Part shown: positions 26,780 through 33,766 of the stretch, piece after piece
How the letters are laid out: each line of letters starts with the position of its first letter
How positions within the stretch are numbered: the stretch's first letter is position 1
Assembly (NCBI GenBank): GCA_030040155.1
Contig: JASHUG010000116.1
Coordinates: forward strand, 1-33,766
DNA from: Streptosporangiaceae bacterium
GTDB lineage: Bacteria > Actinomycetota > Actinomycetes > Streptosporangiales > Streptosporangiaceae
Length of the DNA stretch: 33,766 nucleotides
Direction: 5' to 3'
Notes under the pieces: generated by a model
What the model was told of the DNA's origin: nothing
What the model saw: the letters and a program-made list of their open reading frames with translations, nothing else
Database searches by the model: none
Translations under genes and position numbers: made by a program

Positions 26780-28213
26780 ATGTTATCGCTATGGGCAAGG
26801 GCGGCTCCCAGCGCCGTTACCGCAGTTCATTGCCGTAAGGGGAGGGGCCCGCTCCGTCATCTGCGGTTAGCTGGCATCCCAGCGCTAGCCGCATTCAGTC
26901 TGCTCTGGTTCCAGGTGCCGACGGCGCCAGCCGCAGCGGCGCGTGTCGCCCAGCCGCACGTGGTCGCGCCAATCCCGGACGTAGCCGGCCCTGGAAGCAT
27001 CGCTGGTCAGCTGCCCGCTCCCATCTCGACGACCCAGTGCGAGGAGCAACTCGGGATCAGGTGCTACTCCCCGCTGCAATACCACGTCGCCTACGATCTC
27101 AATCGCCTCTACGGACAAGGAATCACGGGCGCGGGCGAGACGATCCTCATTGTCGATTCGTACGGATCGCCGACCATCCGCAATGATGTTGCGACTTTCG
27201 ACGCCGAGTTCGGCCTGCCGCCGGTCAACCTCACCATTGACCAGTTCGGCGCGATCCCGCCTTACGATCCGACGAACTCAACGATGATCGGCTGGGCCAT
27301 CGAGACGACGCTGGACGTGGAGTACGCGCACGCGATCGCGCCCGGTGCGAACATCGTGCTGGCCGAGACCCCGGTTGCCGAAGAAGAGGGAACCAGCGGC
27401 TTCCCGCAGATGATGAGCGCCGAGGAGACGCTGATCAACCGCGGCGTCCCCGATGTGATATCGCAGAGCTTCGGCGCCACCGAGAACACGTTCCCCGGCT
27501 TCAGCTCGGGCAACTACTCGAGCCTGCTTGACCTGCGCTACGCGTTCAAGGACGCTCTCCGGCACCACGTCACAGTGCTGGCTGCCGCGGGCGACTACGG
27601 CGCGACCAACCTTGAGTCGAACGGGTCGACGCTCTATCCGTACCCGGTCAACTCCTGGCCGTCGACCGACCCGCTCGTGACCTCCGTCGGCGGATCGGAG
27701 CTCACGCTTGACAACTACGGCAACCGGCTGGCGCCAGACACTGTCTGGAACGACAGCGCGGGAGCCGGGGGCGGTGGCCTCTCGGCCGTCTTCCAGCGCC
27801 CGTGGTTCCAGAATGGGGTCACGAACGTCGTTGGCGATAGCCGCGGTACCCCGGACATCTCGATGAGTGCGGCGGCAACTGCGGGCTGCTGGATCTACGT
27901 CTCGTTCGCGCCTTTCGGTCCGGTGTGGGGCGTCGAGGGCGGCACGTCAGAGGCGACGCCGATGTTCGCTGGGATCGTCGCGCTCGCCGACCAGCTCGCC
28001 GGGCACCGGCTCGGCGACATCAACCCGGCGCTCTACCTGCTCGGGGCGCTCAGCGAGCGCGGTGACAGGACGGGCATCGTGGACATCACGTCCGGCAACA
28101 ACTCCTTCGGGGGCGTGACTGGCTACACCGCCGGCCCTGGCTATGACCTTGCCAGCGGCTGGGGGACGGTCGACGCCTATCAGTTCGTGCACGCGCTGGC
28201 CAGGATCGGCTAG
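26780..28213 (+). CDS. Secreted S53 (sedolisin-type) serine carboxyl peptidase
   Basis: This 477-residue protein has GGAAGGAG just upstream of its ATG and a signal peptide ending near residue 54 (AAFSLLWFQV then APAAAA). The catalytic set of family S53 is visible: Glu175 and Asp179 in GWAIETTLDVEYAHA, oxyanion Asp272 in AAAGDYGAT, and nucleophile Ser390 in GGTSEATPMFAG. DIT and YDLASGWGTVDA near the end suit the calcium site. Only about 45 residues separate the signal from the catalytic domain, so the large activation prodomain of kumamolisins is missing. It is probably an extracellular protease of acidic environments. Confidence 0.93.
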   Translation: MLSLWARAAPSAVTAVHCRKGRGPLRHLRLAGIPALAAFSLLWFQVPTAPAAAARVAQPHVVAPIPDVAGPGSIAGQLPAPISTTQCEEQLGIRCYSPLQYHVAYDLNRLYGQGITGAGETILIVDSYGSPTIRNDVATFDAEFGLPPVNLTIDQFGAIPPYDPTNSTMIGWAIETTLDVEYAHAIAPGANIVLAETPVAEEEGTSGFPQMMSAEETLINRGVPDVISQSFGATENTFPGFSSGNYSSLLDLRYAFKDALRHHVTVLAAAGDYGATNLESNGSTLYPYPVNSWPSTDPLVTSVGGSELTLDNYGNRLAPDTVWNDSAGAGGGGLSAVFQRPWFQNGVTNVVGDSRGTPDISMSAAATAGCWIYVSFAPFGPVWGVEGGTSEATPMFAGIVALADQLAGHRLGDINPALYLLGALSERGDRTGIVDITSGNNSFGGVTGYTAGPGYDLASGWGTVDAYQFVHALARIG

Positions 28214-28297: not shown

Positions 28298-28888
28298 TCA
28301 GCGGTCCGGTAGGCCTGGGCGGTCCCACGCAGGCGTGACGCCGGGCGGGACCGGCACGTCGAAGCCGTTCAGGACGAACGAGATGAGCGTGTAGTAACCG
28401 CAGAGCGTGATCAGCTCGACCATCCCGGCCTCGCCGAGCAGTTCGCGGGCAGCGGCGTACGTATCGTCGTCGATCCGGCCGGCGCTGATGAGCTGACGGG
28501 CGACCGCGTACACGGTCCGCTCGTCCCCGACGCGGAACGGCGGGTTGTCTCCGCGGCCGATCGCGTCCACGACGGCGTCGGTCACGCCGTGCTCGCGTGC
28601 CATGCGCGCGTGCGCCCACCACTCGAACTCTGCGTGCCAGTGCGCTCCCACGGTGATGATCGCGATCTCGGTCAGCCTGCGCTCAAGCGACGTCCCGAAG
28701 CGGACGGTCGCGCCGAGCTCGGTGAGCGCGCGGCCTGTTGCCGGCGCGTGCACGAACGCATTGAACGGGCCGGCCAGCGCGCCGTTCTGTGTCACGAGCC
28801 GGCTGCCGCGGGTGCCGACGATGGCGTCCCACACGGCTTGCCCGTCGGCGGTCAGCTGATCCCGGCGAAGATCTGGCAGTCTGCTCAT
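28298..28888 (-). CDS. Carboxymuconolactone decarboxylase (AhpD-like) family protein
   Basis: This 196-residue all-helical protein has the CMD core at residues about 45-125, including ERRLTEIAIITVGAHWHAEF and EWWAHARMAREHG. The CxxC redox motif of AhpD is absent and the site has His and Glu instead, so it is not a peroxidase partner and may be a decarboxylase-type member; the substrate is unknown. It lies 103 bp downstream of the presenilin-like gene on the same strand and could be the last gene of that operon, but the gap leaves this open. Confidence 0.88.
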   Translation of the reverse strand: MSRLPDLRRDQLTADGQAVWDAIVGTRGSRLVTQNGALAGPFNAFVHAPATGRALTELGATVRFGTSLERRLTEIAIITVGAHWHAEFEWWAHARMAREHGVTDAVVDAIGRGDNPPFRVGDERTVYAVARQLISAGRIDDDTYAAARELLGEAGMVELITLCGYYTLISFVLNGFDVPVPPGVTPAWDRPGLPDR

Positions 28889-28991
28889 GGCCCGACGTTA
28901 TAGCCGGCCATCATGGCAGCATCAGCAGGTCCTCGGAACGCTCCTCATCGACGGTGCTCGCGTCCGTTGACTCCGTGGCGAGGTGACAGGG

Positions 28992-29945
28992 TCAGATGGA
29001 CGCCGGCTCCGGGGCCGGGGCCTGCTCGACCTGAGGCGCGGGAGCCGTGCTGCTCTGGCTGGCCAGGTATTCGGCCATGGTGCGCTCACGGCCGTAGTGC
29101 CGTTTCATCCACAGGTAGGTGAGGAAGGCGGCGGGCCCGAACAGCGACTGCGCGGGGACGAGTTCGTCGAGGTTGGCGTTGGTGAAGTTGAACAAGAACG
29201 GGACGAACGCTGTCGCGAAGCCACCGAAGACCACGGTGACGGCGCCCGCTATCGTGGCTGCCCACTTGCCGTAGGCCTTGTACGCGGCCACGAAGAACAG
29301 CGAGTAGACGAGCAGGTCACCGAGGCCGAGGGCGTAGTCGACTCGGCCGAATCGCATGCCTATCACCGGGGTGAGCGGATGCGTAATGTAGCGCGCGATC
29401 AGCCTGCCGGTCAGCGGATAGTACGAGGCGAAAACGATGTCGTAGCACGCGAGTCCGAGCGACATCCAGGCGACGTGCCGCAGCTTCATCCCGCCCTGCA
29501 AGTACAGGTTGCACACGGCGATCGCGCCGAGCAGCACCACGACGCTCTGCTGGGCGTACCACCAGTCCCATCCGGCGACGGTGCCCATGATGTGATTGCT
29601 CGACCAGATATTCAGGCCGAACAGCACCCCGATCCCCAGCCAGATGCCCACCTGGCCGAGCAGGGGTGCGTAGCCGATGTACAGGGCAGAGGCGAACGTA
29701 ACAAGCAGAATGCAGGTGACCGCCGTATCAGGCAGCCAGCCGTACACGAACGGCAGGACTCCGATGACGATCAGCAGGATCACGACGTCGCGAGTGTTGA
29801 ACGCCCCGACTGGCGGCCGCACCATGCGCACGTACCTGAAATAAGCCAGCGCGCCCGAGCAGACCACGATCACGCCGGTCAGGATCACGCAGAACAGAGT
29901 GAGGCTTTCTTCCCACTGGGGTATCGGGAAAATTACGACCGGCAT
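28992..29945 (-). CDS. Presenilin/signal peptide peptidase-like intramembrane aspartyl protease
   Basis: This 317-residue protein shows nine hydrophobic helices and a Pro/Ala-rich cytosolic tail. Helix 6 has ACYDIVFAS (Tyr168-Asp169), helix 7 has ALGLGDLLVYS (GLGD 207-210), and helix 9 has FGPAAFLTYL (Pro271-Ala-Ala, in place of the PAL motif). YD in helix 6, GxGD in helix 7 and PAL in helix 9 are the signature and topology of presenilin, signal peptide peptidase and archaeal PSH. The two Asp are 41 residues apart, near the spacing in signal peptide peptidases. The ATG at 29945 is 1 bp after the stop of the ligase gene, so the two are coupled. By-eye fold call; a chance match in an unrelated membrane protein is the main alternative. 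Confidence 0.75.
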   Translation of the reverse strand: MPVVIFPIPQWEESLTLFCVILTGVIVVCSGALAYFRYVRMVRPPVGAFNTRDVVILLIVIGVLPFVYGWLPDTAVTCILLVTFASALYIGYAPLLGQVGIWLGIGVLFGLNIWSSNHIMGTVAGWDWWYAQQSVVVLLGAIAVCNLYLQGGMKLRHVAWMSLGLACYDIVFASYYPLTGRLIARYITHPLTPVIGMRFGRVDYALGLGDLLVYSLFFVAAYKAYGKWAATIAGAVTVVFGGFATAFVPFLFNFTNANLDELVPAQSLFGPAAFLTYLWMKRHYGRERTMAEYLASQSSTAPAPQVEQAPAPEPASI

Positions 29946-29946
29946 G

Positions 29947-31380
29947 TCATGCTCCGACGAGTGCGTGAGGGCTGGCGAACGTGGTTTCGAGCATGTCGCT
30001 GCGCGTATGGCGAAGCGAGACCGCCTGGTCGTCGCCGACGATGTCCAGGTCGACGTCCAGTCCGGCCGCCGCGAAGTGGCGGACGGCCTCGGCCTGGCTG
30101 TAACCAGCGATAGCGCTGGCCGGCAGGGTGAGCCGGATCCGGCCGTCACAGGCTGCCGCGCGGTATCGGGCGGGCCAGGGTTCGGCAGGCAGCGACTCGA
30201 TCACCTCGATGAACTGCCGGGACGTGACGATCTCACCACCTGGCATCCGCAGCAGATGGTCGGCCTTGCCGAGGACCAGGCTCGTCGCGGGGACGGTGGC
30301 CAGCTCGCAGTGTAGGGGCTCGTCGGGCAGGCACCGCGCGACGTCACGGGTGTCGTAGCGCAGAACGGGCGTGCAGTCCCGGTACGGGAAGTAGGGGGTG
30401 ATCACGAGGGTGCCGAGCGCCCCCGGCGCGGCAGGCTCGCCGGTGTGCAGGTCGACTAGCTCGGTGAGCCCCAGGTTCGTGTCGTGGTGCATGTGTCCCT
30501 GGCTGCAGGGACGCCCGGTGATCGGGACGATCTCGGTCATGCTGTAGGGGTCCTCGACGTGCGGGACGCCGAACATCCCTGATGCCGCCCGGACCAGGCT
30601 CGGCGAGAGTACCTCACCCCCCGACACGAGGCGGCGCAGACGGAAGTCGCCGGCGCCCATTCCGGCGCGCCGGGCCGCCTTCACGAGTTCGGCAAGATAG
30701 CTGGGGTTGGTCAGCAGGATCGTGGCGCCGCCCTCGGCCAGGCTTTCCAGCGCTGTCTCAGGAGGCACGATGCCGAGCAGACGACACCCGGCTCCGGCCA
30801 GCCGGCAGGCGTTGGCCGCCTGGTGCAGGGCCACGGTGGAGCGCGAGCTCAGGTTCACCTGCATGACATCGCCGGGCCGAAGCTCGCCTCGCAGTACCGA
30901 GGCCAGCGCGCCGAGCGCAGGCCACAGTTCCATCTCGTAGCGCGACAGCCACACCTCCGTGGGGCGCCCCGTGGTGCCGGTGGTGCGGGTGGCCAGGTAG
31001 GCCTGGACGTCGGTGCAGCGGAAGTCTCCTGGCCGTTCGGTCAGGTCCGCCTTGACCGTGACTGGGATCGCCCGCAGCCCGGCTACGTCGAGCTTGGCCG
31101 GGTCGATCTGGGCGGAGCTGAAGAGGCGCGCATAGAACGGTGACTGTGCGCCGAGCCTGACCGCGGTCCGGCGCAGGCTGCCATTCGTGAACTCGAGCCG
31201 GTCCTCCGGGTTGGTCGTCGGTCCTTCGACAAGCTCGGCGGCGTCCGCGCCCGCCTCGCCGAACTCGGCCAGGGTGGCGAGGACGTCGCCGACCAGCCGT
31301 TCGACGTTGCGCGGGTCAAGCCGCCGCCGCAGGGCAATGCCCAGCGCCAGCCGGAACTGCCGTACGCCTGTCTCGAACAT
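29947..31380 (-). CDS. PaaK-like adenylate-forming enzyme
   Basis: This 477-residue protein belongs to the phenylacetate-CoA ligase branch of the adenylate-forming superfamily. It has the phosphate loop TTGTTGRPT (133-141), DPYSMTE as the adenine-side motif, VLRYDTRDV around the ribose-binding Asp, and GKADHLLRMPGGEIVTSRQ near the hinge. Such enzymes activate a carboxylic acid as an acyl-adenylate, then pass it to CoA, a carrier protein or an amine. The substrate is unknown. The ATG has GGAGCGGAGCG directly upstream. It lies between the small hydrophobic peptide gene and the presenilin-like gene, so an acyl-peptide or fatty acid tailoring role can be imagined. Confidence 0.88.
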   Translation of the reverse strand: MFETGVRQFRLALGIALRRRLDPRNVERLVGDVLATLAEFGEAGADAAELVEGPTTNPEDRLEFTNGSLRRTAVRLGAQSPFYARLFSSAQIDPAKLDVAGLRAIPVTVKADLTERPGDFRCTDVQAYLATRTTGTTGRPTEVWLSRYEMELWPALGALASVLRGELRPGDVMQVNLSSRSTVALHQAANACRLAGAGCRLLGIVPPETALESLAEGGATILLTNPSYLAELVKAARRAGMGAGDFRLRRLVSGGEVLSPSLVRAASGMFGVPHVEDPYSMTEIVPITGRPCSQGHMHHDTNLGLTELVDLHTGEPAAPGALGTLVITPYFPYRDCTPVLRYDTRDVARCLPDEPLHCELATVPATSLVLGKADHLLRMPGGEIVTSRQFIEVIESLPAEPWPARYRAAACDGRIRLTLPASAIAGYSQAEAVRHFAAAGLDVDLDIVGDDQAVSLRHTRSDMLETTFASPHALVGA

Positions 31381-31401
31381 CGCTCCGCTCCGTCCACTGC
31401 G

Positions 31402-31415
31402 ATCGCAAGTGCGAT
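31402..31415. promoter_or_regulatory. Palindrome upstream of the adenylating enzyme gene
   Basis: ATCGCA and TGCGAT flank a 2-bp centre, about 22 bp upstream of the ligase start and between it and the small peptide gene. It could be an operator for an internal promoter. No regulator gene is adjacent. Confidence 0.35.
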
Positions 31416-31504
31416 TACCTCACTAATGCAGGTCTGGCGTGCGGGCCGACGCCGCCCGTGATCGGAATGCGCCGGCTCGCACGGTACCTCATCGACCTTC
31501 GCGG

Positions 31505-31591
31505 TTAGACGCTCTCGGCCGCGGCGGCGCTGAACAGCACCGCGCTGAGCGAGCCCAGCACGTAACGCAGGTGCTTGACGGAAGAACGCAT
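31505..31591 (-). CDS. 28-residue hydrophobic, signal-peptide-like small protein
   Basis: A short frame of 28 codons has the strongest ribosome binding site of the locus (GGAAGGAGG, 6 nt before the ATG). The product has Arg2, Lys6, His7 and Arg9, then a hydrophobic stretch from Tyr10 to Ala25 (YVLGSLSAVLFSAAAA), and ends Glu-Ser-Val. It resembles a signal peptide with almost no mature part, or a single membrane helix. It lies between the cupredoxin and ligase genes. It may be a peptide precursor, a substrate for the presenilin-like protease, or a leader peptide; I do not recognise a known family. Confidence 0.65.
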   Translation of the reverse strand: MRSSVKHLRYVLGSLSAVLFSAAAAESV

Positions 31592-31663
31592 GGTTTCCCT
31601 CCTTCCCGGATACTCGGCCAATGTGTTGTGGGGTTGGTCAGTGGGTTGCGGGACGGGTCACGG

Positions 31664-32065
31664 TCAGGGGAGGACGAGGACCGTGAGGTTCATCTCGGGG
31701 TGGAGCCCGCAGGTCACGTGGAACGTGCCCGGCGTCAGCCACGGGCCGGTCCTGTAGACCTCGTTCATTTGCATCAGGTGGAAGCCTCGCACTGGCTCGC
31801 CGCGCACCGGGGTGGTGATGAGCCCGTTCTGACCTGGCCCGATGTCGTGGATGTTTTTCGAGCTGTCCACGAACGTGAGGTACTGGCCGCGGTGGATGGT
31901 CACGGAGTCCAGCGTGAAGTCCATGAAGGACATGCCCACGGTATTGGGCGGAGCCGGCTTGGGACTCCCGACGAACACGGCGGGCACGAATATTCCCGCC
32001 AGAATGGGAGGAACGACAAGAAGAATGCGGGGGACTCGGGAGAGAATGCTACCTAATCTAGCCAC
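31664..32065 (-). CDS. Membrane-anchored cupredoxin (plastocyanin-like)
   Basis: This 133-residue protein starts at a GTG preceded by AGAGGA 6 nt upstream; the frame runs further upstream but without a better site. Residues 9-32 form a hydrophobic N-terminal anchor or signal. The C-terminal half is a cupredoxin: NIHDIGPG gives ligand His73, and FHVTCGLHPEM gives Cys119, His122 and Met125, the type 1 copper set. It would carry electrons on the outer membrane face. It is the first gene of the minus-strand run that continues into the small peptide, ligase and presenilin-like genes. Confidence 0.85.
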   Translation of the reverse strand: MARLGSILSRVPRILLVVPPILAGIFVPAVFVGSPKPAPPNTVGMSFMDFTLDSVTIHRGQYLTFVDSSKNIHDIGPGQNGLITTPVRGEPVRGFHLMQMNEVYRTGPWLTPGTFHVTCGLHPEMNLTVLVLP

Positions 32066-33429
32066 CGGTTTCCTCTCGCCAGCAGCGCTCCTCGGCAGAG
32101 GACGACTGTAGATCCATCGGCCGCTTCCCCTCAGACGTCCTTGTCCTTGTTGCCTCGAACGCGACCAGCCGTCGGCTAGCAAGCGCACTCTACGTCGCCG
32201 TTTTTAGCTCGTAAATAGATAGCTTCTAAAATCGTGACCTCTGTCAATTATTGTTGTTATTGTTATCTACTGTTACGGTCATACCGCTTGGCGCACTTGG
32301 CAGCCTGAGGGGACAGCTGCGGCGGTTGCGTGGCATAGGTAACGACAGCCGCAGATTGAGGCGGAGGGCGACGACGCCTTGGGACTGGCACGCCGGCGTT
32401 CTGATTGCGGAGCCGCCAGCGCCCGCCTGCTCCTCCAGCCGGACACGCCGGGCCGAGGGCGACTGAATCAGCGCCTCAGCTGACCGGCCAGAGCGGCTGG
32501 GGCGTTCGGGCCGCTGAAGAGCGGCCGGCGAAATACCGCCGTTGTGGCCTGCTGCGTATTGGCGGGGCGTCGTCAGGTCGGCACCGACCTTCGTCGCTGA
32601 GCGATATGAGCCGGAATTTCGCCGTGCGGCAGGGCCGGGCGCACGTTCCGCAGTTCTGCTGGCCGGTGGACGGCTTTTATTCGGTCGGTCGACGAGCGTT
32701 CAGTTTGTGCTCCCGCCGATCGCCGCGCCGCAGTAGCTGCGCTATATCGCAAGTGTCCGCGCGTCAGCCCCGCATGAGCGCACAAGGCGGCGCGGCGCTT
32801 CAGCGTGTTGACGGCGTAAAGGGTGAACTCGGCCCGCCATCAGATGACGATCTGGACCGAGCCGCGATCGGGCCCGAGGCCGGCCCGGCAGGTTCGCCGG
32901 GATGCCGGGGCCGTGGCCTCGCGCGTGACGACCGATGTCCGTTTTAATGGTAATTAACCGGTAATGCCGTACGCCTCTCGGTGCTGCCGCGTATGCAGCG
33001 CGCATGACTGGCTCACAGCGGTCCTGTCATGCTAATGGCGCTCGGTGTGGAGTTGCTGCACCGGTCTGGTAGGTCACCCGGCGGCTCGCAACAACCTGAA
33101 GAGTATTCGAGCGCGCCGCGCTTAATGTCCTTTACCTGAAAGCGAACTGTGGTCCGGTCGATTTTGTCAACAGAACGGTAAGACATGAACGGAAGCAGCG
33201 CGGCATTCCTCCATTCTTCGAGAGTCTGGCCGGCGTGCGGTTATTCAAGCGACATATCGCGGCGACAGCTTCACCACGCGGTCAGTCGCAACGTTTCGCG
33301 CTCGACAGTCTAGGCTTTGGTGTATAACGCCGATCGATTGCGTCAGCGGTGTCGGGACCGGCGTTTACGGGCGCTCCTTCGATCCGACCATGCATGCCGA
33401 GTACTCCAACCGCACTTCGTGATTCTTCC
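32066..33429. other. Long intergenic region, no convincing gene
   Basis: About 1.36 kb separates the cupredoxin gene from the end of the dioxygenase gene. Base composition drops, most clearly at 32195-32280, where runs such as TTATTGTTGTTATTGTT occur, and again at 32940-32970 and 33150-33200. Open frames here, including one of 180 codons at 32405-32947, have no domain, repeat or ribosome site. An inverted repeat GCATGAC/GTCATGC lies at 33002-33032. It looks like a control region or recent insertion of non-coding DNA. Confidence 0.55.
32195..32268 (-). promoter_or_regulatory. AT-rich promoter-like region upstream of the cupredoxin operon
   Basis: On the minus strand a TTGACA box is found at 32242-32247, followed by AT-rich sequence with TATCTA about 20 bp later, which is longer than ideal. 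An AACAATAACAACAATAA stretch precedes it. A promoter here would give a leader of roughly 150-180 nt for the cupredoxin mRNA. This is the only such AT-rich block in the region. Confidence 0.35.
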
Positions 33430-33766
33430 TTAGCGGTAGGGCGTCAGGTCGGCCCTGGGGTAGCGCGTTTGGGTGTCGGCCAAGGTCTGCTCGTCCCAGT
33501 ACGGGTCGCCGGGAGCGGGCCATCCGAACACCGACCGCTCCCGGGGGGTCGCCCGCTCGACGATCTCAAACCAGCCTGGTTGCGTCGCGCGCTCGGCCCA
33601 GGCGACCCTGCCCGTCCAGCGCGGTCCCCACGCGTCGTAGTTGACGAGGAGCGCAAAGCGGGTTGAGCGTTCCCCGGTCATGGCCGACCCACGGTGAAGC
33701 ACGTCGGTCTGACGAACGAGCAGGGTTCCTGCGGGACCTGTCATGGAGACCTCCTCCTCGGCGAAC
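33430..33766 (-). CDS. Phytanoyl-CoA dioxygenase (PhyH)-like protein, C-terminal part
   Basis: The frame stays open to the right edge, so only the last 111 or so residues are visible. GPAGTLLVRQTDVLHRGSAM and STRFALLVNY match the C-terminal part of PhyH-type Fe(II)/2-oxoglutarate dioxygenases, with the His of VLHRGS as the second iron His and the Arg after TGERSTR as the likely 2-oxoglutarate-binding residue. The HxD motif would lie outside the window. Members hydroxylate lipids, amino acids or natural products; the substrate is unknown. It stops at a TAA and reads into the long intergenic region. Confidence 0.7.
   Translation of the reverse strand, partial: FAEEEVSMTGPAGTLLVRQTDVLHRGSAMTGERSTRFALLVNYDAWGPRWTGRVAWAERATQPGWFEIVERATPRERSVFGWPAPGDPYWDEQTLADTQTRYPRADLTPYR

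Follow-up and report, generated by a model that had tools for sequence, protein, structure and literature searches.

Does a hydrophobic reading frame of only 28 residues, lying in front of a ligase gene in a Streptosporangiaceae bacterium, encode a peptide that the cell makes, and, if so, what might that peptide be for? The frame had been singled out in an original prediction made on a stretch of 33,766 nucleotides (hereafter the window), which read it as a signal peptide without a mature protein and, from its place in an operon with an SPP-like protease, as a natural substrate or pheromone candidate. Our analysis reveals that the 28-residue peptide is encoded by a genuine gene that had been missed, and that it belongs to a cassette whose other constant members are a membrane protein carrying YD and GxGD motifs and a PaaK-like ligase; the role that we favor for it, that of a precursor cut into a secreted signal, is put forward tentatively.

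Results

The micropeptide gene and its surroundings

The hydrophobic ORF of 28 residues, with its claimed coordinates, its strong Shine-Dalgarno site and its basic start, is present in the sequence (Table 1), and 6 nt separate GGAAGGAGG from the ATG. The window holds 335 ATG/GTG ORFs of 20-45 aa; GGAGG stands at Shine-Dalgarno distance in 3/335, and among these three the micropeptide is the only hydrophobic one, with a best 14-residue mean hydropathy of 1.93 versus 0.54 and -0.61 in the other two. Antisense to the peptide and the cupredoxin-like gene there runs a 205-codon open frame (window 31439-32056, plus strand), which is probably a high-GC mirror frame.

Table 1. Features of the cassette in the window.
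Feature	Position	Strand	Description and basis
Micropeptide gene	31505..31591	-	28 aa, MRSSVKHLRYVLGSLSAVLFSAAAAESV; translation and homologues in 35 intact cassettes
Shine-Dalgarno site of the micropeptide, GGAAGGAGG	31598..31606	-	Sequence; SD-like site kept before homologues
PaaK-like adenylate-forming ligase homologue	29947..31380	-	477 aa; PF00501 E 1.4e-10; best PDB relative 4r1l, E 4e-20
Multi-spanning membrane protein bearing YD and GxGD motifs; putative intramembrane aspartyl protease of the GxGD type	28992..29945	-	317 aa; motifs in homologues
Membrane-anchored cupredoxin-like protein	31664..32065	-	First gene of the cluster here; NIH...CGLHPEMN pattern, by eye
Sigma-70-like promoter match	32247..32276	-	Lies before the cupredoxin-like gene; from a consensus scan only (1 match versus 0.1 expected)

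On the minus strand the genes follow one another in the order cupredoxin-like gene, micropeptide, PaaK-like ligase and YD/GxGD (SPP-like) membrane protein, the last two being separated by one base. From this layout and from the terminator and promoter scans, which gave no terminator-like site in 31300-32500, we infer that the cassette is transcribed as one unit; the stretch 28500-33766 holds no Rfam match. The cupredoxin-like protein has no Pfam match, and its gene stands before the peptide in seven loci (the window, L011, L012, L015, L020, L075 and L078), homologues not having been found in the remaining loci of the 35 described below. A gene for a Subtilase-type secreted peptidase adjoins the cassette in the window (26780-28213) and in its nearest relative (L011:7614-9029), in opposite orientations relative to the cassette.

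Related loci carry one peptide each

Relatives were sought in genomes and plasmids with the SPP-like protein as query, and the flanking DNA was then inspected. Thirty-five intact ligase and SPP loci, the window included, were obtained from 33 genomes or records; they belong to Streptosporangiaceae (the window among them), one Embleya and two Streptomyces plasmid records; the hosts are soil actinomycetes of the Streptosporangiaceae and Streptomycetaceae. The 35 include two loci (L020 and L067) in which the contig stops within the SPP gene, decayed copies (L013, L025 and L072) are excluded, and the term Nonomuraea-like is an inferred label for genus g4. Exactly one homologous peptide, of 22-31 aa, is present in each of the 35 loci. 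Its frame and its start, the conservation of which in relatives had been left to be checked, are retained, together with its Shine-Dalgarno site and with no frame-breaking indels, and the predicted clustering with the YD/GxGD membrane protein recurs in every intact relative found. The ligase, which was absent from the earlier interpretation, is tied to the peptide as tightly as the protease is.

A pattern describing the conserved front of the peptide, run over the 928,716 six-frame residues of the loci, gave a single match in each locus and no others; the exception is the L020 peptide, which differs from the pattern at one residue and was recognized by its position and sequence. Since the pattern was composed after most peptides had been seen, a whole-genome search with a peptide alone carries more weight: one 25-aa peptide of the Nonomuraea type gave 21 matches in 343 whole genomes of the family, 20 of them in cassettes already found via the SPP gene and the 21st (E 0.34) in a 273-aa frame and near chance. 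This search is insensitive to the most distant peptides, missing even the window's own, and distant subgroups may therefore hold orphan peptides. A class-wide search of 395 genomes returned the window genome and one marginal match only, from which the cassette looks rare outside Streptosporangiaceae, at thin sampling.

The excluded copies are of two kinds. In a Geodermatophilaceae MAG (L013:7995-8903) a broken SPP-like gene, with neither ligase nor peptide, lies in a housekeeping region and looks like what is left of a cassette that had been transferred. In Nonomuraea gerenzanensis (L025:8231-9390 and L072) matches covered only the C-terminal part of the ligase and an interrupted SPP-like gene, no peptide was found there, and the cassette seems to have decayed.

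The peptide lies 5' of the ligase in 34/35 loci, at a gap of 57-151 nt (368 nt in L075). The remaining locus, L073, has its homologous MIKANMRYLRYAVSTLAAVGFGAHGST starting at the end of the SPP gene, where the whole-genome search recovered it independently but weakly (G501, E 0.69). Peptide distances track those of the ligase and the SPP-like protein (Mantel r 0.91, a value that 0 of 2000 permutations reached), which is what common inheritance of the genes would produce.

A conserved front and a free tail

The first 20 residues of the peptide are strongly conserved and can be written as K..RY..GSLSA..F, in which only Y10 and F20 are near-invariant. We computed pN/pS from the codon alignment on two sets of 11 close pairs, which share pairs and are not mutually independent (a first version of the test used 13 partly overlapping pairs). 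The ratio was 0.13 and 0.18 up to F20 and 1.18 and 1.77 after it, the counts of change in core and tail differing at Fisher P values of 5e-6 and 1e-8 in these overlapping sets. The codon-substitution test thus reveals purifying selection, in agreement with the claim that the gene is real; the tail ratio, near or above 1, means that no constraint is detectable there, and positive selection is unsupported.

Tails are 3-8 residues long (e.g., VLNG, ASMV, QLPCS, TTG, SAAAAESV); some contain Cys, and no modifiable residue is common to them. The front carries a charge of +2 to +4 and, after the conserved Tyr, 13-18 nearly uncharged residues follow, a stretch that is short for a full membrane span. 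The 16-residue hydrophobic core of the prediction stands as a hydrophobic stretch, its length across the family being better given by this range, and the Ala-rich end, while present in the window peptide, is limited to it and to the L011 peptide. The basic N-terminus and hydrophobic core are those of a secretory signal peptide; a conserved A-x-A-type signal peptidase site is absent across the tails of the family. Because the Ala-rich end is not conserved, we reject the reading of the peptide as the product of a signal peptidase, which is the sense in which a signal peptide without a mature protein had been proposed.

The membrane protein and the ligase

Y168 D169 and G207xG209D210, the latter 41 residues from YD, are found in 33/33 full-length homologues of the membrane protein. 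Such YD and GxGD motifs are the signature described for presenilin-like proteases (PMC2947513), and the protein also resembles presenilin/SPP-type GxGD proteases, e.g. archaeal MCMJR1 (PMC2947513), in being multi-spanning. It differs from them in that the PAL motif is at best partial (P264 in 30/33, then AQ, LL, VL or others, not AL) and in that no profile matches it significantly: PF06550 has no match in the genome at E<=1, while the controls do match; Presenilin PF01080 reaches E 1.9 over the GxGD part, which is not significant; and there is no significant Pfam match and no PDB match by sequence or profile. AlphaFold2 gave a pLDDT of 41-43 in two runs, one with a single sequence and one with 4 sequences only. 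In view of these searches and low-pLDDT models we name the protein SPP-like by motif, not a proven member, its putative place in the SPP/presenilin group resting on the two short motifs.

The ligase has an AMP-binding domain (PF00501 above cut-off) and shares with the PaaK-like acyl-CoA ligases (PDB 4r1l, 2y4o, 2y27) the adenylate-binding loop and a similarity over about 310 residues. Its TTGT adenylate-binding loop is invariant in the 35 loci, as are C292, H296, H298 and C358, which perhaps form a metal site; the family also carries an invariant R-x-D-x-x-E-x-x-F. In the adenylate-forming superfamily the catalytic lysine usually lies in the C-terminal part. Among the 35 homologues no conserved Lys column is found in that part. 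In contrast to the PaaK-like acyl-CoA ligases, the cassette ligase thus seems to lack a conserved C-terminal lysine, and it scores below every NCBIfam curated cut-off; ordinary CoA-ligase chemistry is therefore not to be assumed, and the enzyme may be other than an ordinary CoA ligase.

Regulators beside the cassette

A SARP/AfsR-type (BTAD) regulator adjoins 19/35 loci in three arrangements. In 14 Nonomuraea-like loci it follows the SPP gene in convergent orientation, where the one scanned (L064) has BTAD, NB-ARC and TPR parts and lengths run up to 1146 aa, and likewise in L019, whose short SARP of ~242 aa is without TPRs and aligns to the DNA-binding and BTAD part only. It is divergent upstream in L074, L076 and L077, and it lies upstream of the cupredoxin-like gene in L078. 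None was found near the window cassette and 15 other loci. Nonomuraea-like genomes of 12-13 Mb contain 50-59 BTAD genes and those of L077 and L019 15-16, which at an assumed density of about one gene per kilobase amounts to ~0.2-0.5% of genes. Loci within a clade cannot be treated as independent, and even when the adjacency is reduced to some three to four independent arrangements it is well above chance. No peptide importer or exporter, and no tailoring enzyme, transporter or immunity gene, recurs beside the cassette. In L016 (5099-5935) and L017, which represent two species of a single genus, a gene for a PaaX-like repressor precedes the cassette and suggests aryl-CoA-type control there.

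Discussion

We propose, at a probability of roughly 0.45, that the micropeptide is a ribosomally made precursor which the GxGD protein cuts to yield a short secreted peptide, and that this product is most likely a signal. To judge from its charge, the basic N-terminus would stay in the cytoplasm while the hydrophobic stretch enters the membrane; the adjacent YD/GxGD protein would then cleave in or beside this stretch and free the variable C-terminal part outside. The conserved front would be what the processing proteins recognize and the variable tail would be the message, the PaaK-like ligase may modify or activate the precursor or its product, and the SARP/AfsR-type regulator, where present, would probably either respond to the signal or control the cassette. 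A role as precursor or pheromone agrees with a front that is conserved, a tail free of constraint and the repeated presence of a SARP regulator. It is further favored by the presence of one peptide in every intact ligase and SPP locus and the return of the peptide-only search to known cassettes, by distances that follow both enzymes, by the constancy of the YD and GxGD motifs, by a basic front with a nearly uncharged remainder, and by the retention of the peptide after the SPP gene in L073. Against it, the tail is so short that it could simply be unconstrained, the assignment of the protease comes from two motifs that profile searches do not back, 16/35 loci have no BTAD regulator nearby and that of L019 has no TPRs, no peptide importer or exporter recurs beside the cassette, and the proposal leaves the ligase unexplained.

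Several of these observations would be expected under other explanations as well. The main rival, unlikely in our estimate yet deserving serious weight, is that the peptide, in the manner of a regulatory micropeptide, persists as a stable small component of a membrane complex that also contains the GxGD protein and the ligase; its small residues (GSLSA, STLST) would pack against membrane helices and its tail would be a functionless loose end. Strict one-to-one linkage, distances correlated with both enzymes and a hydrophobic part that is strongly conserved down to its small residues, whose spacing is fixed, suit such a subunit, and the variation of the tail in length and sequence is what an end without function would show; tail variability by itself does not discriminate between the two readings. 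A subunit leaves the recurrent SARP-type regulator unexplained, however, its 13-18 residue stretch is short for a stable span, and the strong Shine-Dalgarno site suggests a peptide made in excess of the enzyme. A RiPP-like product, which we regard as somewhat less likely still, would account for the leader-like front and variable end by removal of the front as a leader by the GxGD protein, and for the dedicated ligase of every locus by addition of an acyl or other group; the SARP would then be an ordinary cluster-situated activator, such regulators being typical pathway activators of actinomycete product clusters. Yet its variable part would comprise a mere 3-8 residues with no shared modifiable residue, and the accompanying tailoring, transport and immunity genes do not recur.

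Two further explanations concern the frame rather than its product. That its own translation controls ligase and SPP expression in cis, as a leader peptide does in attenuation, could be thought of from the position of a short ORF with a Shine-Dalgarno site at 57-368 nt before the ligase in 34/35 loci. The placement of the L073 peptide after the SPP gene indicates, however, that this position is not essential, amino acids are conserved across wide divergence while synonymous sites are free, and neither an Rfam element nor a terminator-like site is present; we reject the leader as very improbable on the L073 order and the selection on amino acids. A chance ORF or decayed signal peptide might be suspected where 335 short ORFs share one window, but one peptide per cassette, the pN/pS values and the whole-genome search are all contrary to it; the codon-substitution test and that search refute it, and its probability is negligible.

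That membrane proteases cut short peptides is already known. In the agr system the micropeptide AgrD combines a front that is conserved and membrane-associated with a segment that varies, and it is served by a dedicated membrane protease, AgrB; the cassette is similar in these respects; AgrB is a cysteine protease that makes a thiolactone, and none of its features are seen in the cassette, so we claim likeness only and not homology. In the Eep system the precursor is a lipoprotein signal sequence and the protease, a site-2 metalloprotease, is encoded elsewhere, whereas the micropeptide is a free-standing gene that shares its cluster with a candidate aspartyl protease of the GxGD type and, always, with a ligase. 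The enterococcal and listerial pheromones (cAD1, pPplA) are nonetheless Eep-dependent examples of a hydrophobic peptide of the signal-sequence type freed by an intramembrane protease (PMC4379056), and the short hydrophobic peptide, the intramembrane release and the signal role are proposed likewise for the micropeptide. RRNPP pairs of Bacillota also join a small propeptide gene with a good Shine-Dalgarno site to a nearby regulator with TPR repeats (PMC10075063), and the L064 regulator has TPRs. RRNPP receptors, though, are of 250-500 aa with HTH and TPR and pair directly with a propeptide of 10-100 aa encoded next to them (PMC10075063); the cassette peptides, of 22-31 aa with a Shine-Dalgarno site, have a regulator near them in 19/35 loci, not always as immediate neighbor, and the regulators span ~242-1146 aa, with neither that of L064 nor that of L019 of the receptor type.

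No description of the cassette was found in the open-access papers searched. In L023, the one annotated record examined, the ligase and the SPP-like protein have entries in the gene table and the peptide has none, a weak sign of missing annotation given that PLSDB tables are incomplete. That we are dealing with an undescribed three-gene system, in which the micropeptide is cut by a divergent GxGD protease, modified by the PaaK-like ligase and read as a signal by SARP/AfsR-type regulators, is rather unlikely in this complete form. SARP-type regulators are of the kind that switches on antibiotic clusters.

Whatever its function, the peptide defines a micropeptide family, to which no Pfam or NCBIfam model matches. 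If cut as proposed, it would be a natural substrate of a bacterial protein of the GxGD type. Quorum sensing by peptides prevails in Bacillota; the signals of Actinomycetota are typically described as enzyme-made small molecules (PMC10075063). With a dedicated micropeptide always beside a candidate intramembrane protease and a ligase, and often beside a SARP-type regulator, the cassette makes peptide-based control in Nonomuraea and its relatives directly testable. If the complete three-gene reading is true, the cassette would represent a separate class of peptide signalling in a phylum whose signals are held to be mainly small molecules, the novelty being greater if the ligase makes a new type of signal.
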